A model generated the notes under the pieces. It had not been told where the DNA came from. It saw only the letters and a list, made by a program, of their open reading frames with translations, and ran no database searches. DNA of 64,000 nt from Ruminiclostridium sp. (lineage in GTDB: Bacteria; Bacillota; Clostridia; Oscillospirales; Ruminococcaceae). How positions within the stretch are numbered: the first letter of the stretch is position 1; each line of letters starts with the position of its first letter. Shown here one piece after another: positions 23,942 to 47,195 of the stretch. The translations under genes were made by a program, and so were the position numbers. The stretch covers positions 124,001 through 188,000 of the forward strand of contig JAGBHT010000032.1 of the NCBI GenBank assembly GCA_017935365.1, given 5' to 3'.

Positions 23942-24047
23942 ATGAAATGTAGTCGGGAGGAACACCGAACGACAGATAAAAATTGTACATAACATTATGG
24001 AGTATCAGAAACTCCGGGGGATTACCCCTTTAAGAAAGGAAAACAAC

Positions 24048-24944
24048 ATGAACAAGAAGTTAATATCACTTATCGCAGGGGTAGCTTTAGTAGCTACAAC
24101 AACAGGATGTTCAAACAGCGCAACAAGCAGCACAGCAGACGCAAGCTCGACAGCAGGCAACACATCATCAGCATCTGACACAACAAAGGCTGACGATTCT
24201 TCAGCAACAGAAGAACTCAGCGGCACACTGTCAATGAACGGTTCTACATCAATGGAAAAGGTTATCAAGGCAGTTAACGGCGCATTCATGGAAAAGAACA
24301 AGGGTGTAACAGTTAACTTAAACCTCACAGGTTCAGGTACAGGTATCCAGGAAGCCTCAGAGGGCAAGTGTGACATCGGTAACTCTTCAAGAAAGCTCAA
24401 GGACGATGAGGCTGAAAAGCTCGACGCTACAGTGATCGGTCTTGATGGTATCGCTCTTGTAGTTAACCCCACTAACAAGCTCGAAGACATCACAATTGAG
24501 GATCTCGCAAAGGTTTACTCAGGCGAGATCACAAACTGGAAGGATCTCGGCGGCGACGATAAGGCTATCGTAGTGATCGGACGTGAGGACGGTTCAGGTA
24601 CAAGAGACGGTTTTGAATCGATCGTAATGGGTGACAAACAGCCTCAGTACGCACAGGAACTTGAATCTACAGGTTCTGTAATCAACGCAGTTGCTACAAC
24701 AGACGGTGCAATCGGTTACGCTTCACTTGCAAACGTTGACGAAACAGTAAAGGCACTCAAGATCGGCGGCGTTGAAGCTACAGAAGAGAACGTTAAGAGC
24801 GGTGCTTACGAAGTACAGAGACCTTTCATCTGCGCAACACTCAAGGACTCAGACAACAAGCTCGTTAAGGCTTACCTCGACTTCATTCTCTCAGAAGAAG
24901 GTCAGGCTCTCGTACTTGCACAGGGTGCAGTTCCCGTAAAGTAA
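24048..24944 (+). CDS. pstS: phosphate ABC transporter substrate-binding lipoprotein
   Basis: 298 residues from the ATG at 24048, chosen because AAGAAAGGA lies 7 bases ahead; an upstream in-frame ATG (23997) lacks one. A lipoprotein signal ends in TTTGC-S, so the mature protein is lipid-anchored outside the membrane. SMNGSTSMEKV, NLTGSGTGIQ, DIGNSSR and IGREDGSGTRDGFE are phosphate-binding loops of PstS. The linker after the lipid Cys is Ser/Thr/Ala-rich. Codon bias indicates high expression. It heads the pst operon behind the putative Pho boxes. Confidence 0.96.
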   Translation: MNKKLISLIAGVALVATTTGCSNSATSSTADASSTAGNTSSASDTTKADDSSATEELSGTLSMNGSTSMEKVIKAVNGAFMEKNKGVTVNLNLTGSGTGIQEASEGKCDIGNSSRKLKDDEAEKLDATVIGLDGIALVVNPTNKLEDITIEDLAKVYSGEITNWKDLGGDDKAIVVIGREDGSGTRDGFESIVMGDKQPQYAQELESTGSVINAVATTDGAIGYASLANVDETVKALKIGGVEATEENVKSGAYEVQRPFICATLKDSDNKLVKAYLDFILSEEGQALVLAQGAVPVK

Positions 24945-24969
24945 TTGAAAATATGTTGATAATTCCTAT

Positions 24970-25018
24970 ACAGTAAATGGCTTTTCCGGTAGCAACCCGT
25001 TACCGGAATTTGCTGTAT
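24970..25018 (+). promoter_or_regulatory. intercistronic hairpin between pstS and pstC
   Basis: The stem TTCCGGTA / TACCGGAA is extended by TACAGTAAA / TTTGCTGTA. It lacks a T run, so it is more likely an mRNA-stabilising or attenuating hairpin that keeps pstS more abundant than the rest of the operon. Confidence 0.6.
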
Positions 25019-25050
25019 AAGGCTGTATAAGCCCTGAAAGGATGGTTTAC

Positions 25051-26046
25051 TTGGAAAAGACAAGCGACGCAATTGTTGCGGTAGGCTCGGTTGGAAAACA
25101 GAAATCTGCAATAAGAAGCAAAAAATCAGGATTTACGAATGTAACGGAACGCATAATGAAATACATATTCACGGTATGCGGCATAACTGCCGTGGCGTGC
25201 GTTCTGATGATAACAATATATATGATAATATCGGGAGCGCCCGCCATCGGAAAGATCGGAATCACCGACTTTCTGTTCGGCGACACCTGGTATGCAAAGA
25301 AAGAACAGTTCGGTATACTTCCGCTGATACTCACATCGATATTCGGTACTCTCGGCGCTATAGTGATCGGCGTACCGATAGGACTTCTTACAGCGGTGTT
25401 CTTATCGGAGCTTGCACCAAAGGCTTTAAAGAATATTGTAAAACCTGCGGTTGAGCTTCTTGCCGGTATTCCGTCTGTTATATACGGTCTGCTCGGCGCA
25501 AACCTTGTAAAACCGCTTATGTACGGACTGGAAGAGATCATCTATGCGAATGACCCTACACATCAGTTTACAGGCGGTGCAAACCTTGCAAGTGCGATAG
25601 TGGTACTTGCTATAATGATACTCCCCACTATCATAAACATTTCCGAAAATGCGATCAGCGCCGTTCCCTCTGAGTACAGAGAGGCAAGCTACGGACTGGG
25701 TGCTACCAAGATACAGACTATCTTCAAAGTAGTAATTCCCGCCGCAAAGTCTGGTATAGCGTCTGGTGTCGTTCTCGGTGTCGGCAGAGCAATAGGTGAA
25801 GCAATGGCTATTATCCTTGTCGCAGGCAACAGCGCAAATATGCCTGAATTGTTCTCATCGGTCAAGTTCCTTACAACAGGTATCGTTGCCGAATTTCCGT
25901 ATTCAAGCGGACTTCACAGAGAAGCGCTCTTCGCGATCGGTCTTGTGCTGTTCGTGTTCATAATGATAATTAATCTGATACTCAACGGCATACTCAAAAA
26001 GGGTGGCAAGAAAGAAAAAACGGCTAAAACCGCAGGAAAGGCGTGA
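25051..26046 (+). CDS. pstC: phosphate ABC transporter permease PstC
   Basis: About 331 residues. A TTG at 25051 is favoured because GAAAGGA directly abuts the ATG at 25042, leaving no spacing. It has six hydrophobic segments with the binding-protein-dependent transport loop EYREASYGLGATKIQTI (EAA motif) and the PstC-type ISGAPAIGKIGITDFL region between helices 1 and 2. It pairs with PstA to form the channel. Its stop is 6 bases before pstA. Confidence 0.94.
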   Translation: MEKTSDAIVAVGSVGKQKSAIRSKKSGFTNVTERIMKYIFTVCGITAVACVLMITIYMIISGAPAIGKIGITDFLFGDTWYAKKEQFGILPLILTSIFGTLGAIVIGVPIGLLTAVFLSELAPKALKNIVKPAVELLAGIPSVIYGLLGANLVKPLMYGLEEIIYANDPTHQFTGGANLASAIVVLAIMILPTIINISENAISAVPSEYREASYGLGATKIQTIFKVVIPAAKSGIASGVVLGVGRAIGEAMAIILVAGNSANMPELFSSVKFLTTGIVAEFPYSSGLHREALFAIGLVLFVFIMIINLILNGILKKGGKKEKTAKTAGKA

Positions 26047-26052
26047 TAGACT

Positions 26053-26961
26053 ATGGCGAAAACTACGGCAAAAGAAGTTACAAATTCTCTTACAAGAAAG
26101 CGCAGAAGAGTAAGCGATATCATGCTGAAGGTGCTTATCTTCCTGTCATCGGGCATAGTTGTTGCGCTGACGCTCGGTATGATAATATATATAGTGATAA
26201 AGGGCACGGAGGGTATGAGCTGGAACTTCCTTTCAACTCCCGCATTCTCTTATCCTTATGAGAATTACGGTGTTCTCGGTAATATAATCAATACGTTTTA
26301 TCTTGTTCTGATAACGCTTGTAGTCGCAACGCCTATCGGTGTCGGTGCGGCTATATACCTAACAGAATACGCAAAGCAGGGCAAGCTCACAAGAATAATC
26401 GAGTTTACGACCGAAACGCTTGCAGGCATCCCCTCGATCATATACGGACTTTTCGGAAGCGTATTCTTCTACAACATTTTCAAGGTAAACTACTCACTGC
26501 TTACAGGTGCGCTGACGCTTTCGATAATGGTACTGCCCACTATAATCCGTACCACACAGGAAGCTATAAAGACAGTTCCGATGGGCTACAGAGAGGGTTC
26601 TATAGGTCTTGGCGCTCCCAAGTGGCACATGATAAGAACAGTTGTTCTCCCCAGCTGTATAGACGGTATACTGACATCGGTAATTCTGTCTATAGGACGT
26701 ATAGTAGGCGAATCTGCGGCTCTTATCTTCACGGCAGGTATTGCGGCTGAGGTCGGTATCAACTCGATCTGCGACATATTCGGCAAGGTCATGAACCAGG
26801 GCGGTTCGCTCACGGTTCAGCTTTACCAGTACGCACAGCGTGGCGGTGCAGAAATGAAGTACGCGTTCTCAACAGCGCTCGTACTGCTTGTAACAGTACT
26901 TATAATCAACATCTGCGCTAAGCTTGTAGCTTACAGGATAAGAAGGAAACGTTCGGTATAA
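26053..26961 (+). CDS. pstA: phosphate ABC transporter permease PstA
   Basis: A 302-residue membrane protein with six hydrophobic segments. The EAA loop reads GYREGSIGLGAPKWHMI, and SWNFLSTPAFSYPY and FTTETLAGIPSIIYGLFG are PstA signatures. It forms the second half of the phosphate channel. Confidence 0.94.
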   Translation: MAKTTAKEVTNSLTRKRRRVSDIMLKVLIFLSSGIVVALTLGMIIYIVIKGTEGMSWNFLSTPAFSYPYENYGVLGNIINTFYLVLITLVVATPIGVGAAIYLTEYAKQGKLTRIIEFTTETLAGIPSIIYGLFGSVFFYNIFKVNYSLLTGALTLSIMVLPTIIRTTQEAIKTVPMGYREGSIGLGAPKWHMIRTVVLPSCIDGILTSVILSIGRIVGESAALIFTAGIAAEVGINSICDIFGKVMNQGGSLTVQLYQYAQRGGAEMKYAFSTALVLLVTVLIINICAKLVAYRIRRKRSV

Positions 26962-26990
26962 ATTCAGAAATCAAGAAAAGAGGATAAACA

Positions 26991-27770
26991 ATGTCAGATA
27001 TAATCGTACCTCAGAGCGATGTAAAGCTCTGTACAAGAAACGTAAATCTCTATTACGGCGAAAATCACGCACTGAAAGACATAAACCTTGATATAAAGAC
27101 AAATAAGATCACCGCATTCATAGGACCTTCGGGTTGCGGTAAATCTACATATCTCAAAAGCCTTAACCGTATGAACGACCTTGTACCCGATTGTAAGATT
27201 ACAGGTCAGTTCCTGCTTGACGGCGAGGATATATATGCGGACGGCGTTGATACAAACGTACTGCGCCGCAGGATAGGAATGGTGTTCCAGAAGCCTAATC
27301 CCTTCCCGATGAGCATATACGACAATATCGCATACGGACCGAGAGTACACGGCATCAAGAGCAAGGCAAAGCTTGACAGAATAGTTGAGGAAAGCCTTAT
27401 CGGTGCGGCTGTATTCGATGAAGTCAAGGACAGACTGCATAAATCCGCGCTCAGCCTTTCGGGCGGTCAGCAGCAGAGAATATGTATAGCAAGAGCAATC
27501 GCGGTCCAGCCGGAAGTAATTCTTATGGACGAACCTACATCGGCGCTTGACCCTGTATCAACGTTAAAGATCGAAGAGCTTATGAATACACTGAAAGAAA
27601 AGTACACTGTTGCAATAGTAACGCACAATATGCAACAAGCAACCAGAATTTCCGACTTTACCGCATTTTTCTTAGTCGGCGAAATGGTTGAGTATGCCCC
27701 TACAGATGAGCTGTTCTCACGTCCTAAGGATAAGCGTACAGAGGACTACATCACGGGACGTTTCGGTTGA
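26991..27770 (+). CDS. pstB: phosphate ABC transporter ATPase PstB
   Basis: 259 residues. Walker [21 protein letters not shown] (a PstB-specific stretch), signature [14 protein letters not shown], Walker [14 protein letters not shown] and the C-terminal [10 protein letters not shown] typical of PstB. It powers phosphate import by PstCA. AAGAGGATAAAC precedes the ATG. Confidence 0.97.
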
Positions 27771-27815
27771 TTTTGCAAATTATATGTGATATTATATTAG
27801 AAAGGGCAAAAAGAA

Positions 27816-28472
27816 ATGAGAGAAACATTTGAACATAAGCTCGGAAAGCTGAATAACGACCTTATCCGTATGGGCGGAATGATAGAAGAGGCGATAGCTT
27901 CGTCGATAACTGCGCTTCGTGACAGTGACGCCGAGCTTGCGCAGAAAGTCGTTGACGGCGACAGACAGGTAGATGAGGAAGAAAAGAACATTGAGAGCCA
28001 GTGTCTGTCGATAATACTGCGTGAACAGCCGGTCGCAAAAGACCTGCGTAAGGTGTCTGCGGCGCTTAAAATGGTAACCGATATGGAGCGTATAGCGGAT
28101 AACGCCGCCGATATTGCGGAGATCAGCCTTACAGCCGATGTATCGACTATCATGCACATAGTAAAAGAGATCCAGACTATGAGCGAAAAGGTCATAATAA
28201 TGGTTTCACACTCTATAGATTCATTCGTAACTACCGATATGGAGCTTGCAAATGAAACGATAAAGGCGGACGATGAGGTCGACGAGCTGTTTATTTCGAT
28301 AAGAAACCGCATAGTAGAGCTTATAAAGAGCGAGCATTGCAGCGGAGAGGTTGCGGTTGACGCTCTTATGATAGTAAAATATCTTGAAAGAATAGCTGAC
28401 CACGCAGTAAATATCTGCGAGTGGGTCGAGTTCTTCAAGACGGGAGAATACAAGAATACCCGTATTATTTAA
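27816..28472 (+). CDS. phoU: phosphate signalling protein PhoU
   Basis: A 218-residue all-helical protein with two copies of the PhoU three-helix motif. VDEEEKNIE and the EREPVA-like REQPVAKDLR occur in the first half; ADDEVDELF and VKYLERIADHAVNICEWVEF in the second. PhoU links Pst transport to the histidine kinase and keeps the Pho response off when phosphate is ample. Its place between pstB and the two-component genes fits that role. Confidence 0.95.
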   Translation: MRETFEHKLGKLNNDLIRMGGMIEEAIASSITALRDSDAELAQKVVDGDRQVDEEEKNIESQCLSIILREQPVAKDLRKVSAALKMVTDMERIADNAADIAEISLTADVSTIMHIVKEIQTMSEKVIIMVSHSIDSFVTTDMELANETIKADDEVDELFISIRNRIVELIKSEHCSGEVAVDALMIVKYLERIADHAVNICEWVEFFKTGEYKNTRII

Positions 28473-28486
28473 ACGGAGGAAATATA

Positions 28487-29185
28487 ATGGCTGAACGTGT
28501 CTATATAACCGAGGATGATGACAGTATAAGAGAGCTTGTAACAGTGGCTCTTTCCGCATATTCATACGAGGTGGAGAGCTTTGTGAGCGCCGAGGACTGC
28601 CTTGCCGCAACGGAAAAACAGGTACCGGATATATTCCTGTTTGACATAATGTTACCTGGTATGGACGGAGTGCAGGCAGTCAAGATCCTGCGTGAACGGG
28701 AAGAAACAAAGAATACGCCTATACTTATGCTGACAGCAAAATCCGCTGAGATAGACAAGGTTTTCGGGCTTGAAAACGGCGCCGATGATTATCTGACAAA
28801 GCCGTTCGGAATTATGGAGCTTGCCGCAAGAATAAAGGCTCTGCTCAGACGTGCGGGAAGAGGTTCATCCGACAGCAGTTCCGAGAAAATTACCGCAGGC
28901 GGTATCACGATAAATACTGCGCTCAGAGAAGTAAGCCGTGACGGAAAGCCGGTCGAGCTGACGCTTAAAGAATATGAACTTCTTTTGTATCTTTTAAAGA
29001 ACCGCTCAAGGGTCGTAAGCCGTGAAGAACTTCTGACAAAGGTCTGGGGCATTGATTTTGTCGGTGAAACAAGAACGCTTGATATGCACATAGGAACGCT
29101 CAGAAAAAAGCTCAGCGACGACGCGGAGAACGCTCATCTTATCAAGACGGTAAGAGGTATCGGCTACAGATTTATAGGAGAATAA
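28487..29185 (+). CDS. phoP: OmpR-family response regulator, PhoP/PhoB type
   Basis: 232 residues from the ATG at 28487, preceded by CGGAGGAAA; a longer in-frame start inside phoU has no ribosome site. The receiver domain has the acidic pair in TEDDD, phospho-acceptor D53 (LFDIMLPG), the MLTAK Thr and the TKPF Lys. A winged-helix effector follows (LTLKEYELLLYLLKN, SREELLTKVWG, TLDMHIGTLRKKL). Direct repeats with 11-bp spacing, as upstream of pstS, are what regulators of this class bind. The phosphate role is inferred from context. Confidence 0.92.
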   Translation: MAERVYITEDDDSIRELVTVALSAYSYEVESFVSAEDCLAATEKQVPDIFLFDIMLPGMDGVQAVKILREREETKNTPILMLTAKSAEIDKVFGLENGADDYLTKPFGIMELAARIKALLRRAGRGSSDSSSEKITAGGITINTALREVSRDGKPVELTLKEYELLLYLLKNRSRVVSREELLTKVWGIDFVGETRTLDMHIGTLRKKLSDDAENAHLIKTVRGIGYRFIGE

Positions 29186-29200
29186 CAGGAGGACGTACAG

Positions 29201-30946
29201 ATGAAGAAAGCGCTTATAGTACGTTTCCTTATAGTAATTGCAATTGTCATGTCGGTGTGCGTGGTATCTGCTACCGCACTCCTTTCAAGCACGGAGCAGA
29301 ACGTCAGAAAAAGCGATATGCTGACTTCTCTCGGACTTATCCGTGAAATATACGAGGACGAACCAAACCACGACTATGACCTTGCAAACAGATTAAGCTC
29401 ACTTATCGGCAATGCCAGAGTGAGCTTTATCAATAAGGAAGGCACTGTATTTGTAGATACTTATATTGACGGTGAGCCTAATGACAATCACAACAACCGT
29501 GAGGAAATAAAGCAGGCAGAGCTGACCGGAAGCGGAGTAGCGGTAAGATACTCAAAGACGCTCGGTAAAAATCAGATCTATGCCGCAATGAAGGTAAAGG
29601 ACGACGACATAATCAGAATAAGCTACAACATAAACAGCTATATGGATTTTGCGTCAATGTTCATAGCGCCCATGCTGATCGCCGCCGCAATAGGTATAAT
29701 CACAGGGCTTATAGCGGTAAGCAGTGTGGCACGTCAGATAATGAAACCGATAAACAGCATATCCGAGGCCATGAGCAGTATGAAGTATGTCGGCGATGAT
29801 AAAGTGACAGCGGAACTTGAAGAGATACCCGCACACAAGTACCCCGAACTTGACGAATTTGTCACTATGTTCAACTTCATGCGCAAGAGCATACAGGACA
29901 ATATGAAAACGCTTGAGAACGAGCGTGAAAAGGAACGTTTCATACTTGAAAGCTTACAGGACGGTGTCATACTCTATGGCAACGATCTGTCGGTAATATC
30001 TATCAACCGTGCGGGACTTAAACTTCTCGGCGCGTCTGCAGACAGCCGCATTTCGACTATCCCCGAGCTTGCAAGAAAGCCTGAGATAATCAGCGGAGCG
30101 GAGAAAGCGGCAAACGAGGACAAGACGGTAACTATCGACAGCACCGTTGACGGCAGGATTCTGCTCGTACAGGTATTCCCCGTATCGAAGAGCGGAATAG
30201 ACGCTATGCACGGTGGACTTATGGTTATCCGTGACGTTACCGACAAGCGTATGTCTGAACAGCTCAAAGCCGATTTCTTTGCAAATGCGGGACATGAGCT
30301 TAAAACGCCGCTGACAGCAATTTCCGGCTTTGCGGAGCTTCTTGAAAACGGGCTTGTACCTAAGGACAAAAAGGATTATTATATCGGTAAGATCCTTACC
30401 GAGGCAAAGAGAATGTCAACGATAATCAGCGACATTCTTGAGATATCCTCACTTGAAAACAAGACGGCAGCCGAGGAAGTGACCGACTGCAAGCTGCTTG
30501 AAATCTGCACCGCCGTAAAGGAATGCCTTGAACCTACTGCGGCGGCAAAGAATGTTACTATCGATTTATCGGGTGACGGTTTTACCGTCCGTGCCGCGTA
30601 CAAGCACATATACGAATTGGTTGAAAACATAGTCAGCAACGCCATAAAATACAACAAGGACGGAGGCAAGGTAGAAATTAAGCTGCACGACGTCGGAGAG
30701 ATAGGCTGTATCTATGTAAAGGATAACGGCATAGGAATCCCGAAAGAATCGCTGAGCCGTGTGTTTGAACGTTTCTATCGCGTTGACAAGGGCAGAAGCA
30801 CCAAAGAGGGAAGCACGGGACTGGGCTTATCTATAGTAAAGCATATCGTCAACTGTTACGGAGGTACGGTAACTATAGACAGCGAGCTTGGCAAAGGAAC
30901 GCTTGTCTGCGTAAAACTGCCAATCGCTAAGGGAATAGAAGAGTAA
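29201..30946 (+). CDS. phoR: sensor histidine kinase, PhoR type
   Basis: 581 residues: a helix at about 5-27, an extracytoplasmic sensor of about 120 residues, a second helix near 150-173, HAMP (KPINSISEAM), a PAS-like region (SLQDGVILYGNDLSVISINRA), HisKA with H365 (GHELKTPLTAISGF), then the ATPase with ENIVSNAIKYNKDG, DNGIGIP and GSTGLGLSIVKH. It should phosphorylate the regulator 15 bases upstream. The domain order is the usual PhoR one with a periplasmic-type loop, as in Bacillus rather than E. coli. Confidence 0.93.
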   Translation: MKKALIVRFLIVIAIVMSVCVVSATALLSSTEQNVRKSDMLTSLGLIREIYEDEPNHDYDLANRLSSLIGNARVSFINKEGTVFVDTYIDGEPNDNHNNREEIKQAELTGSGVAVRYSKTLGKNQIYAAMKVKDDDIIRISYNINSYMDFASMFIAPMLIAAAIGIITGLIAVSSVARQIMKPINSISEAMSSMKYVGDDKVTAELEEIPAHKYPELDEFVTMFNFMRKSIQDNMKTLENEREKERFILESLQDGVILYGNDLSVISINRAGLKLLGASADSRISTIPELARKPEIISGAEKAANEDKTVTIDSTVDGRILLVQVFPVSKSGIDAMHGGLMVIRDVTDKRMSEQLKADFFANAGHELKTPLTAISGFAELLENGLVPKDKKDYYIGKILTEAKRMSTIISDILEISSLENKTAAEEVTDCKLLEICTAVKECLEPTAAAKNVTIDLSGDGFTVRAAYKHIYELVENIVSNAIKYNKDGGKVEIKLHDVGEIGCIYVKDNGIGIPKESLSRVFERFYRVDKGRSTKEGSTGLGLSIVKHIVNCYGGTVTIDSELGKGTLVCVKLPIAKGIEE

Positions 30947-30971
30947 GTTTTTCTGTTTCATATTTTTCCGC

Positions 30972-31000
30972 TTGACACGGCGGTACATTTATGATACACT
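30972..31000 (+). promoter_or_regulatory. promoter of the cysE-cysS T-box transcript
   Basis: TTGACA (30972-30977) and TACACT (30995-31000) are separated by 17 bases. It begins only 25 bases after phoR, with no clear terminator between, so some read-through from the pst-pho operon is possible. Confidence 0.7.
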
Positions 31001-31009
31001 AAGCATATA

Positions 31010-31276
31010 GTAAAACATAAGTGTAAAGACCGTGTACGGCAAGAGTACCTGGAAAATGAAGTCTTACAGAGAGCCGTGTCAGGTGAAAGACGGCAGACGG
31101 ATTTACGGCGAAGTGCGGCTGTACGGATATTTTTATCCGGGTCGGCAGAGGGAAAATTTCAAGTATCTCTGTCCGTTTTGTCTGCGTTAAAGACATAAAG
31201 GGAGTGTAAGCTCCGAATCGAAGTGGAACCGTGGTATATACCGCCTTCGTCTGCAATGCAGAAGAAGGCTTTTTTA
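31010..31276 (+). ncRNA. T-box riboswitch, probably tRNA-Cys
   Basis: Stem I landmarks appear in order: AGTA (31044), AGAGA (about 31068), GGTG (31082) and a GAA-containing specifier loop with TGC at 31114-31116, a Cys codon. The T-box core AGTGGAACCGTGG is at 31222-31234 and the terminator GCCTTC-TCTGC / GCAGA-GAAGGC plus T run at 31243-31276. Uncharged tRNA-Cys should allow read-through into cysE-cysS. The core and terminator are certain; the specifier choice rests on position and on the downstream genes. Confidence 0.92.
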
Positions 31277-31311
31277 TTTTGTGATTTTGTTTTGTGAAAG
31301 GTAGGAAATGA

Positions 31312-31974
31312 ATGTTCGATAAGATAAAAGCGGATATCAAATCGGTCAGAGAACGAGATCCTGCCGTTAAGAGCGACCTTGAGGTATTTTTCCTCTATCC
31401 CAGTTTCAAGGCAGTCAGGGCATACCGCAGGGCGCATAAATGGTATCTTAAGAAGCACTATTTCATAGCAAGATGGATCTCACAGCGCGCTTTACGCAAG
31501 ACGGGTATTGAGATCCACCCCGGTGCAACGATAGGAAAGGGCTTGTTCATTGACCACGGAAGCGGTGTTGTAATAGGTGAGACCACCGAGATAGGCGACT
31601 ATTGCACGCTGTATCAGAACGTTACGCTCGGCGGTACGGGTAAGGACACGGGAAAACGTCACCCGACGCTCGGTAACAACGTAATGGTAGGCTCGGGCGC
31701 AAGGGTACTCGGACCGTTCAAGGTAGGCGATAACGCAAAGATAGCCGCAAATGCGGTAGTTCTGTCCGAAGTTCCGCCTAACTCAACGGCAGTCGGTGTT
31801 CCTGCAAGGGTAGTACGCCGTGACGGGCAGAAGGTCAACGCCTGCGACCTTGACCAGATACACATTCCCGACCCTGTGGCACAGCAGATATGTGCCTTAC
31901 AGAGCAAGCTGGAAACAATGCAGAGCGAGATAGATCTGCTGAGAGAAGAACTCAAAGAGAACAATATTAAATAA
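31312..31974 (+). CDS. cysE: serine O-acetyltransferase
   Basis: A 220-residue CysE, which makes O-acetylserine from serine and acetyl-CoA, the first step of cysteine synthesis. It has a left-handed beta helix of hexapeptide repeats (IHPGATIGKGLFIDHGSG, VVIGETTEIGDYCTLYQNV), the catalytic-loop GGTGKDTGKRHP and VGVPARVV at the end. The C-terminal 40 residues are a predicted coiled coil (ALQSKLETMQSEIDLLREEL). AAAGGTAGG precedes the ATG. It is controlled by the T-box leader. Confidence 0.96.
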   Translation: MFDKIKADIKSVRERDPAVKSDLEVFFLYPSFKAVRAYRRAHKWYLKKHYFIARWISQRALRKTGIEIHPGATIGKGLFIDHGSGVVIGETTEIGDYCTLYQNVTLGGTGKDTGKRHPTLGNNVMVGSGARVLGPFKVGDNAKIAANAVVLSEVPPNSTAVGVPARVVRRDGQKVNACDLDQIHIPDPVAQQICALQSKLETMQSEIDLLREELKENNIK

Positions 31975-31992
31975 AAAAGCGAGGATAAGAAA

Positions 31993-33411
31993 ATGCAGTT
32001 ATATAATTCATTATCACACAAAAAAGAAGAATTTGTACCGAATGTCGAGGGCAAGGTAAATATGTACACCTGCGGTCCTACCGTGTATCATTTTGCGCAT
32101 ATCGGCAACCTCCGCAGTTATATCATGGAGGACGTACTCGAAAAGTATCTGCGCTATGTCGGCTATGACGTAAAGCGTGTTATGAACATTACCGATGTAG
32201 GACACCTGACAAGCGACGGCGACACGGGCGACGACAAGATGTTAAAGGGCGCAAAGCGTGAGCATAAGACGGTTATGGAGATAGCAAAGTACTACACCGA
32301 CGCTTTCTTTGAGGACTGCAAGAAGCTGAATATCAAGCGCCCCGACGTTGTTGAACCTGCCACACATTGCATTGCCGACTTCATCAAGGTGATTTCCGCC
32401 CTTATCGAAAAGGGCTATGCTTATGAAGCAGGCGGAAACATCTACTTTGATACCTCAAAGCTTGAAAAGTACTATGTGTTCAACGACTTCAAGGAAGAAG
32501 ATCTTGCGGTAGGCGTCCGTGAGGGCGTTGAAGAGGACGGCAACAAGAGAAACAAGGCTGACTTCGTTCTGTGGTTCACAAAGTCAAAGTTTGACGATCA
32601 GGAACTCAAGTGGGACAGCCCGTGGGGAGTAGGCTACCCCGGCTGGCATATCGAGTGCAGCTGCATAAGTATGAAGCATCTCGGTGAATATCTTGACATC
32701 CACTGCGGCGGCATCGACAACGCATTCCCCCACCACACAAATGAGATAGCACAGAGCGAGGCTTATCTCGGTCATAAGTGGTGCAACTACTGGTTCCACG
32801 TTCACCACCTCAATACAAACAGCGGCAAGATGAGCAAGTCGAAGGGCGAGTTCCTGACAGTATCTCTGCTTGAAAGCAAGGGCTATGATCCTGTGATATA
32901 TCGTTTCTTCTGCCTGCTGTCACACTACAGAAAGTCGCTCGTATTCTCTTATGAAAACCTTGACAATGCAAAGGGTGCATACGAAAAGCTGGTCGCTAAG
33001 ATAGCACAGCTTTTAAAGGCAGAGCAGGGCGAGGTCGACAAGGCGGCTTACGACAAGCTCCGCGAGGGCTTCACTGCCGCTATGGATAACGATATAAATA
33101 CATCGCTTGCAATCACTGCACTGTATGACGTGTTAAAGGCTGACACTACACCTGCCACAAAGCTTGCGCTTATCGCAGACTACGACAAGGTGCTTTCGCT
33201 GTCGCTTATTGAAAAGGCTAAGGCTGTAAACGAAAAGCCTGCCGATACAGCGGAAGAGCTTCCTGCCGAAATTCTTGAGCTTGCCGAGCAGAGAAAGCAG
33301 GCAAGAAAGGATAAGAACTTCGCACTTGCCGATGAGCTTAGAGATAAGATAACCGCAATGGGCTACACCGTCGAGGAAACAAGACAGGGAACGGTTATAA
33401 AGAAGAAGTAA
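31993..33411 (+). CDS. cysS: cysteinyl-tRNA synthetase
   Basis: A 472-residue class I synthetase: the HIGH motif as HIGN in [14 protein letters not shown], the zinc-binding Cys and His residues ([24 protein letters not shown]), KMSKS in [11 protein letters not shown] and the C-terminal helical domain ending [13 protein letters not shown]. It charges tRNA-Cys, the molecule sensed by the T-box. It lies 18 bases after cysE, so cysteine synthesis and use are co-regulated. Confidence 0.97.
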
Positions 33412-33419
33412 GATAATTA

Positions 33420-33445
33420 AACGGGAGGTTGTTGCCTCCCGTTTT
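33420..33445 (+). terminator. terminator of cysE-cysS
   Basis: The stem AACGGGAGG / CCTCCCGTT with a TTGTTG loop and a TTTTG tail. Confidence 0.88.
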
Positions 33446-33464
33446 GTGTTATTATGTATGTTTG

Positions 33465-33890
33465 TCACTCCCCGATTATCGTTTTACCAACCTCATACTG
33501 TTCGGGAAAAGCTTTGTCAAGATCTATTTTTTCACCGTATGATCTTTCAAATGTGTTGTTGGAATTAGTTGTACTTGATGTTTGATGATAGGAGGATTTT
33601 CCTGCAATCATTTCTAGGTAGTTGTTGATTGAATAGCAAAATTCGGTTATTTTAATTTCATTTTTAATTTGCTCAGCTTTAGCGTCCAACAAAAATGTAA
33701 TTACAAGCGTTGAAACGATTTCCAAAAAAGTAACAACCAGTGTTATTATGATAGTAGTTATCATCACCCCCGATGTAGCGTTAGTATTGAAGTTGCCGGC
33801 TAAAAGCATACCTGCTATAAATAAAACGATTGCGCCTATTATGCCTATAGTAAGTATCACCGTTGATAAAGTTCTGAGTTTTGATTCCAT
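33465..33890 (-). CDS. small two-helix membrane protein, unknown
   Basis: A 141-residue protein with two hydrophobic helices (about residues 9-31 and 41-67) and a soluble C-terminal half rich in Ser, Thr and Asn, ending KAFPEQYEVGKTIIGE. GGAGGT precedes the ATG. A promoter is visible on the minus strand (TTGACA 33951-33946, TATATG 33928-33923, 17-base spacer). Its base composition is more AT-rich than that of neighbouring genes. I do not recognise the family. Confidence 0.75.
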   Translation of the reverse strand: MESKLRTLSTVILTIGIIGAIVLFIAGMLLAGNFNTNATSGVMITTIIITLVVTFLEIVSTLVITFLLDAKAEQIKNEIKITEFCYSINNYLEMIAGKSSYHQTSSTTNSNNTFERSYGEKIDLDKAFPEQYEVGKTIIGE

Positions 33891-33999
33891 GTTTATACCT
33901 CCGTATTTTCAACAAATTATCGCATATAATTCTTTTGCGGAATTTTGTCAAGCGTTTTTCCATTATAATTCTAATTAAGAATATAAGGGGGAACGGCGC

Positions 34000-34254
34000 A
34001 TGAAAATCCGCAAGAAAGAATACGGCACGGCAAATATGGTTGGCAGAAATATTGAGCATTTACGCAAGCAAAAGGGTATAAAGCAGAAAGATTTCATTGC
34101 TCGTATGCAGGTGTGCGGCTGTGACATTAATTCTTCAAGCTATTCAAAGCTCGAGGGTCAGCTCCGCTTTGCGAATGATAAAGAGCTGTATGTCATTGCC
34201 AAAATTCTCGGCATCAGTGTTGATGAGCTTTTTGAATGTACAAACGAAGAATAA
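34000..34254 (+). CDS. small XRE-family DNA-binding protein
   Basis: 84 residues, nearly all helix-turn-helix (NIEHLRKQKGIKQKDFIARMQ, then SSSYSKLEGQLRF and ELYVIAKILGISVDELFE). Residues 14-75 form the Cro/C1-type domain. AAGGGGGAA precedes the ATG. It is divergent from the small membrane protein gene and is the obvious candidate regulator for it. Confidence 0.88.
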   Translation: MKIRKKEYGTANMVGRNIEHLRKQKGIKQKDFIARMQVCGCDINSSSYSKLEGQLRFANDKELYVIAKILGISVDELFECTNEE

Positions 34255-45918: not shown

Positions 45919-46010
45919 AAAGGTTACAAACCGGTAACAAAACAGTTACAGTTTTGTCATAAATATTGACTTACCTTTTTTTGCATGATATATTGAAATC
46001 AGGAAAAAGA
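45919..46010 (+). promoter_or_regulatory. operator/promoter cassette, copy 1
   Basis: Four hexamers in exact 11-bp steps: GTTACA (45923), GTAACA (45934), GTTACA (45945) and GTCATA (45956). A further step leads to the -35 TTGACT (45966-45971); the -10 is TATATT (45989-45994) after 17 bases. The first 54 bases match the cassette at 47107 with a single difference, and similarity continues past the -10 (ATCAGGAAA). Such direct repeats next to a -35 are typical of OmpR/PhoB-type activators. Confidence 0.75.
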
Positions 46011-46066
46011 ACATATCTTACAGATGCTATACTATCTGATTCAACCTCGACAGACAGGAGGATCAA

Positions 46067-46480
46067 ATGAAGATTGCAAAAAACATAAGTTTAGGTATCG
46101 GGATGCAAGTATTGGTGTTGCTAATGCATATACTTATTCATTTTATGGACGATATGAACGGCAGTTTTGGTGACATCCAAGACATCCAGATAGCTTGCTC
46201 ATTCGCTGCGGCAATACTTATAACGTATCTGGCGGTTCTTTGTTTTGATTTGCCCGTATACGCAATATTCTGCGGTGCGGTTATTACATTTCTGTTTGTC
46301 TTGATATTTGAAAACGAAGGGGTGTATTTATTGTACTATCTCCATAGGGGAAGCTCCCAATTTTTTAATCCCGATGTTTTTACCGATGCGGTAATTATAG
46401 TATTAGAAATGCTTGTTGTACAATTGCCGTCTTTCGCTCTGGCGAAATTAACTAGATTGGTCTGCAAAAAACAAAACTAA
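46067..46480 (+). CDS. small polytopic membrane protein, unknown
   Basis: 137 residues with about four hydrophobic segments (ISLGIGMQVLVLLMHILIHF, ACSFAAAILITYLAVLCF, LPVYAIFCGAVITFLFVLIF, AVIIVLEMLVVQLPSFAL) and a basic end (KKQN). CAGGAGG precedes the ATG. It is first in a two-gene unit behind operator cassette 1. I do not recognise the family. Confidence 0.75.
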   Translation: MKIAKNISLGIGMQVLVLLMHILIHFMDDMNGSFGDIQDIQIACSFAAAILITYLAVLCFDLPVYAIFCGAVITFLFVLIFENEGVYLLYYLHRGSSQFFNPDVFTDAVIIVLEMLVVQLPSFALAKLTRLVCKKQN

Positions 46481-46508
46481 ACTGTAGTGTTCCGGTATAG
46501 GAGGCTTC

Positions 46509-46970
46509 ATTAAGCATAATTTTACAAGCAGAAAGATTATCGGTTCTTTGTTTTTCCCGATATTAATATGTCTGATATTCGGAACTTCTTTTGTCATTTT
46601 TTCTATTGGCAAAGAATTAAACGCTTTAAGGCTCGGTTGTTTGTTCAGCGCTTCACTTGGCGGATTTCTTCCGATAGTAATTACGCTGATCACCAAAACC
46701 GATACAAGCTTTTATCTTAAAGACAGGGCTATCGTGCCGGCAATTTCTTTAGTTTTTATCTTTATTGCTTGTCTTCTGAACGAACTGTTGGATTCTATCT
46801 ATTATGCATGGTGTGCTATTTTCTTGTTCGTTATTTTATCAACATTTTATTTTCTACGAAAGTGCAGAACGGGTTTAGAACGGTTAATTGTCATTATTTC
46901 AAATCCGATTCTGTATATAGCGGTGTGTCTGATATGCTTCGGTTATGATTTAACTGTATTGCTTGATTAA
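46509..46970 (+). CDS. small polytopic membrane protein, unknown; probable ATT start
   Basis: About 154 residues and four hydrophobic segments. The only ribosome site is TAGGAGG at 46498-46504; the sole in-frame codon at proper distance is ATT at 46509. This gives a basic start (KHNFTSRK) leading into the first helix. The first conventional start, TTG at 46548, has no ribosome site and would remove the basic lead. It lies 28 bases after the preceding gene and is probably made with it. No family recognised. Confidence 0.65.
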   Translation: MKHNFTSRKIIGSLFFPILICLIFGTSFVIFSIGKELNALRLGCLFSASLGGFLPIVITLITKTDTSFYLKDRAIVPAISLVFIFIACLLNELLDSIYYAWCAIFLFVILSTFYFLRKCRTGLERLIVIISNPILYIAVCLICFGYDLTVLLD

Positions 46971-47106
46971 TAATGTATATACGGGTTATACAATTATATC
47001 TGTTATGCGGCTGATGCCTTTTAGGGCTGTCAGTCGCTTTTCTGTATAATGAAACATTCGTCGCAGGTAAATGTTCGGCAGTTGATGCGCTTGCCGAACA
47101 GCCGAA

Positions 47107-47195
47107 AAAGGTTACAAACCGGTAACAAAATAGTTACAGTTTTGTCATAAATATTGACTTGCAGTTTTTATGTGATATACTAAAATCAGGAAAGA
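47107..47195 (+). promoter_or_regulatory. operator/promoter cassette, copy 2
   Basis: GTTACA (47111), GTAACA (47122), GTTACA (47133) and GTCATA (47144), each 11 bp apart, followed by TTGACT (47154-47159) and TATACT (47176-47181; 16-base spacer). It is the near-identical twin of the cassette at 45919, shifted by 1188 bp. Confidence 0.75.

Follow-up and report, generated by a model that had tools for sequence, protein, structure and literature searches.

A duplicated promoter with four putative regulator boxes in Ruminiclostridium sp. and a predicted genus-wide cell-wall regulon

The window, a stretch of 64,000 nucleotides of Ruminiclostridium sp. (contig JAGBHT010000032.1, positions 124,001 to 188,000), contains a repeated block that, judged from its sequence, is a genuine bacterial promoter; it is conserved and has four putative regulator boxes at even spacing. 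The block is not a private operator of the two units that it precedes, because the three-box pattern occurred 69 times across 71 genomes of the genus (0 times for the reversed control). By the position of their sites, the arrays are assigned to a genus-wide regulon of cell-wall remodelling genes. With a probability of about 0.7, each copy would act as an activator array for a WalR-like regulator of the OmpR/PhoB family that governs peptidoglycan remodelling in the genus.

The duplicated promoter and its conservation

A repeat search of the window paired two 63-nt copies with 94% identity, located 1188 bp apart (Table 1), and the likeness extended over another 45 nt at 78%. As the preliminary description had noted, the first 54 nt differed at one position only (53/54 identical; C/T at 45943/47131). 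Each copy contained GTTACA, GTAACA, GTTACA and GTCATA in this order and in exact 11-bp steps, so the four hexamers described earlier were confirmed in both copies. On the opposite strand, both copies read TGTAAC-N5-TGTTAC-N5-TGTAAC. The array had also been said to end at the -35. A consensus -35 does follow it, but the step from the start of box 4 to the start of the -35 was 10 bp in both copies, not 11.

Table 1. Features of the duplicated promoter region, in window positions
Feature	Position	Strand	Evidence or remark
Promoter cassette copy 1, probable duplicate	45919..45981	+	upstream of ORF1-ORF2; same boxes in G132
Box 1 GTTACA, copy 1	45923..45928	+	sequence
Box 2 GTAACA, copy 1	45934..45939	+	sequence
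Box 3 GTTACA, copy 1	45945..45950	+	sequence
Box 4 GTCATA, degenerate, copy 1	45956..45961	+	sequence; register kept in ORF3 orthologues
Sigma-A promoter, copy 1	45966..45994	+	-35 TTGACT 45966-45971, 17-bp spacer, -10 TATATT 45989-45994
Possible 3'-end remnant of a VWA-Lipase_3 gene	46020..46058	+	between promoter copy 1 and ORF1 ribosome-binding site; aligned to L091 lipase
ORF1, 137 aa, hydrophobic, probably multi-TM, immunity-like	46067..46480	+	orthologue in G132; 79-81% homologue in L091
ORF2, 153 aa, hydrophobic protein	46509..46970	+	no Pfam match
Intrinsic-terminator-like hairpin	47007..47045	+	behind ORF2; homologous to hairpin behind ORF1 homologue in L091
Promoter cassette copy 2, probably ancestral	47107..47169	+	upstream of ORF3; 9/9 ORF3 orthologues keep cassette
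Four boxes, copy 2	starts 47111, 47122, 47133, 47144	+	sequence
Sigma-A promoter, copy 2	47154..47181	+	-35 TTGACT 47154-47159, 16-bp spacer, -10 TATACT 47176-47181
ORF3, 91 aa	47251..47526	+	start supported by orthologues in 9/71 genus genomes

When up to two mismatches were allowed, the window contained the three-box pattern 4 times, against 0.09 expected from shuffles. Across the whole genome, the two-box form GTWACA-N5-GTWACA occurred 19 times, compared with 0 for the reversed control. Because of these shuffles and of the reversed controls in genome and genus, a chance origin was excluded.

The ORF3 orthologues carried an array of four or more boxes in all nine cases, despite low protein identity. 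The last box was located 10 bp upstream of the -35, with a 16-bp spacer, in 9/9, and the most distant orthologue (G210) had 17 of 20 in that register with a degenerate fourth box. The ancestral ORF3 promoter is probably copy 2, of which copy 1 would be the duplicate, because the array has an unchanged register in the orthologues, because copy 2 has a CCGAAAAGG-like flank in common with the site in genome G221, which belongs to an ORF3 orthologue, and because ORF1 is rare. Both copies were also present in G132, where they are 1184 bp apart and the proteins are 92% identical. Outside the module, the flanking DNA of G132 and of the window was unrelated on both sides, and the module ends were sharp. 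In G132, a PadR-like regulator gene and two more genes, absent in the window, lay between serA and the module (L082 5607-7616).

Cell-wall targets and promoter classes

This genome contains further arrays near genes of cell-wall remodelling. One exact three-box site separates an M23/LysM/G5 gene from a CAP gene, a seven-box array stands upstream of an NlpC/P60 gene, and a three-box site with a fourth box ATTACA stands upstream of a G5/3D RpfB-like gene. Genus-wide, the targets were M23/LysM/G5, G5/3D RpfB-like and NlpC/P60 genes, lipoproteins, an Ig-like-domain exported protein and small exported proteins; each site was assigned to the open reading frame closest to it, with errors possible in some cases. 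The preliminary description had proposed a dedicated stress response acting on two units and had called four-site repeats longer than most Firmicute operators. A dedicated response was not supported: across the genus, arrays of this kind stand before cell-wall hydrolases and lipoproteins. Four or more boxes are usual among them, and the target set agrees better with cell-wall homeostasis than with a stress response.

The distance from the array to the -35 was read from 55 promoters and was fixed within each class of targets. It was +5/+6 in 12/12 promoters of the M23 class, +15 in 5/5 of the ORF1/ORF3 class, and +44 to +46 in the G5/3D class, with one exception at 57 because the array there is one box longer. 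The class with the motif on the opposite strand was mostly at +10, and an additional TGTAAT box usually abutted its -35. The M23 promoters displayed an additional TGTAACC or TGTTACC between the -35 and the -10.

In the wider family, the strict three-box search found almost nothing beyond the genus, and only the two-box form was seen there. In other genera, 9/26 genomes had the two-box form ahead of a G5/3D gene at p<=0.05 (binomial p about 3e-6), a count obtained with a lenient mononucleotide-shuffle control and with the scoring loosened from three boxes to two; the stricter three-box scoring gave 2/26. Since the two-box form precedes G5/3D genes elsewhere, these counts are suggestive of a link between arrays and RpfB-like genes that is older than the genus, while long arrays would be a feature of the genus itself.

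Some matches were set aside. The two-box matches at C5 and C9 both lie inside genes and were attributed to chance, and GTTACACCTTTGTAACA at C4:9262 and C36:21117 is a palindrome that was treated as a different site. It lies, in identical form, in two intergenic regions of this genome (L065 5018-5034 and L066 5063-5079) and is probably a different operator; its neighbourhoods contain a sugar ABC transporter and purE, and a Na-Pi cotransporter.

ORF1, ORF2 and the secreted-lipase locus

ORF1, ORF2 and ORF3 gave nothing reliable in Pfam or NCBIfam, and the AlphaFold model of ORF1 was unusable (mean pLDDT 48). ORF1 and ORF2 were considered as paralogues, for which likeness was not detectable. The start codon of ORF2 (46509-46511) is ATT in the window and ATG in G132; because of this ATT, ORF2 may be poorly translated here or begun at a later start. 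ORF3 reads as a signal-peptide-like N-terminus, an outside segment of about 30 aa, a single C-terminal TM helix and a charged tail.

Relatives of ORF1 were found only in G132 and L091, a MAG contig labelled as an uncultured Clostridia bacterium, with no other in a family sample of 198 genomes; a relative was not found in viral contigs. The L091 homologue is located 13 bp behind a gene for a secreted TSP3-VWA-Lipase_3 protein of 1276 aa, with AgrB and LytTR genes nearby, and is without a box array. The 39-nt match of the possible lipase remnant in the window is weak alone, as 19/500 shuffles reach its score, and it is contiguous with the homologous ORF1. The alignment of the terminator-like hairpins of the window and L091 scored 63, which 0/500 shuffles reached. 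A small membrane gene directly behind a secreted effector, the arrangement used as a mark of toxin-immunity pairs, was found for the ORF1 homologue in L091 only and not in the window. This position of the homologue directly behind the VWA-Lipase_3 gene suggests that ORF1 may be an immunity gene captured from a secreted-lipase locus.

A similar order was observed elsewhere. A gene of VWA-Lipase_3 type in G212 is overlapped at its end by a multi-TM gene, an unrelated example of this arrangement, and L093 468-3087 has a Lipase_3-bearing gene whose end overlaps the gene for an unrelated multi-TM protein. The region L091 2157-6399, with genes for the lipase and the small membrane protein beside those for AgrB and a LytTR regulator, is a candidate quorum-controlled lipase-immunity locus.

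The candidate regulator and the direction of control

The genome contains seven full-length OmpR-type regulators, none of which passes any equivalog cut-off. The best regulator reached 209 bits for YycF/WalR (cut-off 340). For MtrA, the C46 regulator and the PhoB-like regulator of the window reached 188 and 210 bits (cut-off 300). The C46 kinase scored 238 bits against a WalK cut-off of 725, with the best stretch only in its C-terminal, catalytic part. Since the YycF/WalR cut-off was not reached, we describe a regulator that works like WalR, not one that is WalR.

Of these seven, only the C46 and C29 regulators gave reciprocal best hits in each of the four motif-bearing genomes compared (G132, G215, G263 and G265). 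Three of the genomes in this test are drafts and 30 of 42 matches were read, so an absence may be an assembly or sampling gap; all seven matches were read for G263, and absence there is firmer than in G265. The C46 response regulator (G000:C46:74196-74879) forms a pair with its kinase outside the window and is present in 68/71 genus genomes. The closest matches of its DNA-binding domain are RegX3, WalR, VicR and YycF, and the domain was aligned with that of S. aureus WalR as VDVNIRRLRMKIEEDPSNP versus VDVTIRRLREKIEDDPSHP. The recognition helix is identical also in genus members without three-box sites, and the helices did not separate motif-bearing from motif-free members; therefore, the presence of C46 alone does not predict arrays. 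We infer from sequence comparison that the C46 regulator is the best candidate binder, favoured about 3 to 1 over C29.

The boxes were compared with known systems. On the opposite strand, they agree with the WalR consensus TGTWAH-N5-TGTWAH (PMC9210968). The earlier reading of a twice-used operator and promoter cassette of predicted OmpR/PhoB type was supported. As for WalRK (YycFG/VicRK) of Bacillota, the targets by position are peptidoglycan hydrolases and exported proteins, and the candidate C46 regulator is an OmpR-family protein with a similar recognition helix. In contrast to WalRK, the arrays consist of three to seven boxes and not of a single pair, the phase classes relative to the -35 are fixed, the kinase resembles WalK in its catalytic part only, no regulator reaches the equivalog cut-off, and the neighbours of the candidate operon are DUF1385-like and prmC-like genes (named by eye from sequence). 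MtrAB of Actinobacteria binds direct repeats of about six bases of GTNAC type with 5-bp gaps and controls cell-wall genes including rpfB (PMC5650626). Repeat form and rpfB-type cell-wall targets are as here, but the phylum differs and C46 remains under the MtrA cut-off.

In the proposed mechanism, the phosphorylated regulator would bind the 11-bp direct repeats head to tail on one helix face just upstream of the -35, and would bring in sigma-A RNA polymerase for the transcription of two units, ORF1-ORF2 and ORF3. The duplication of copy 1 would have put a captured immunity-like membrane gene pair under ORF3-type control. In S. aureus, the effect of WalR depends on where its site lies, irrespective of orientation: upstream of the -35 it activates, and between or downstream of the -35 and -10 it represses (PMC10746227). 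Because all boxes here are located upstream of the -35, ORF1 and ORF3 would be activated according to this rule, and control of the M23 promoters may be mixed or negative.

The binder of the same regulon could instead be the C29 regulator (G000:C29:83294-83953), whose reciprocal best hits in the four motif-bearing genomes show 85-100% identity, better conserved than C46, and which scored 203 bits to the YycF model, near C46. This seems unlikely in view of its recognition helix TIDTHIKMLRNNL, which is without the RRLR common to C46 and WalR, and of its best solved relatives, which are other OmpR-family regulators with WalR lower in the list. Repression of ORF1 and ORF3 by the same cell-wall regulator would be in line with the repression of some targets by WalR and with the extra boxes inside the M23 promoters. 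Since every box here lies where WalR sites activate in S. aureus, we give repression a low probability.

PhoB, like PhoP of B. subtilis, recognises direct repeats in 11-bp steps, often four of them, head to tail upstream of the -35. The arrays share this form, box 4 (GTCATA) is like a PhoB half-site, and the PhoB-like regulator that had been suggested as the binder is encoded in the same window, behind pstS-pstC-pstA-pstB-phoU (28421-29185). A phosphate-type operator is nevertheless very improbable. The targets are cell-wall and envelope genes, not phosphate genes, no strict site was found in window positions 24000-34000 around the pst-phoU genes, and, among the matches read, the window regulator had no orthologue in the motif-bearing G263 and G265, with six and two three-box sites, respectively. 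A recent segmental duplication or mobile repeat with no regulatory meaning would explain the near-identical copies and the sharp module ends against G132, but can hardly be credited, since all nine ORF3 orthologues keep the array at low protein identity and unrelated genes also have it in fixed phase with the -35. A search of the genome and its relatives, as proposed in the preliminary description, found the pattern conserved upstream of orthologues and contradicted a mobile repeat without promoter association.

For the activator arrays of a WalR-like regulator, a broader reading is offered tentatively, at somewhat less than even odds: the genus would have expanded the paired WalR-type box to arrays with three to seven boxes, distinct promoter classes being set by the distance and orientation of these arrays to the -35, and would have captured an immunity-like pair of a lipase locus under a duplicated promoter, tying membrane protection to cell-wall homeostasis. 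The results provide a predicted cell-wall regulon and name a candidate regulator for it in a group of Clostridia to which no WalR is assigned by family models. Furthermore, the same boxes in varying number, orientation and phase form a natural promoter series in which the relationship between operator geometry and the direction of regulation is testable. The case of ORF1 suggests a route by which promoter duplication brings an immunity-like gene under envelope control.
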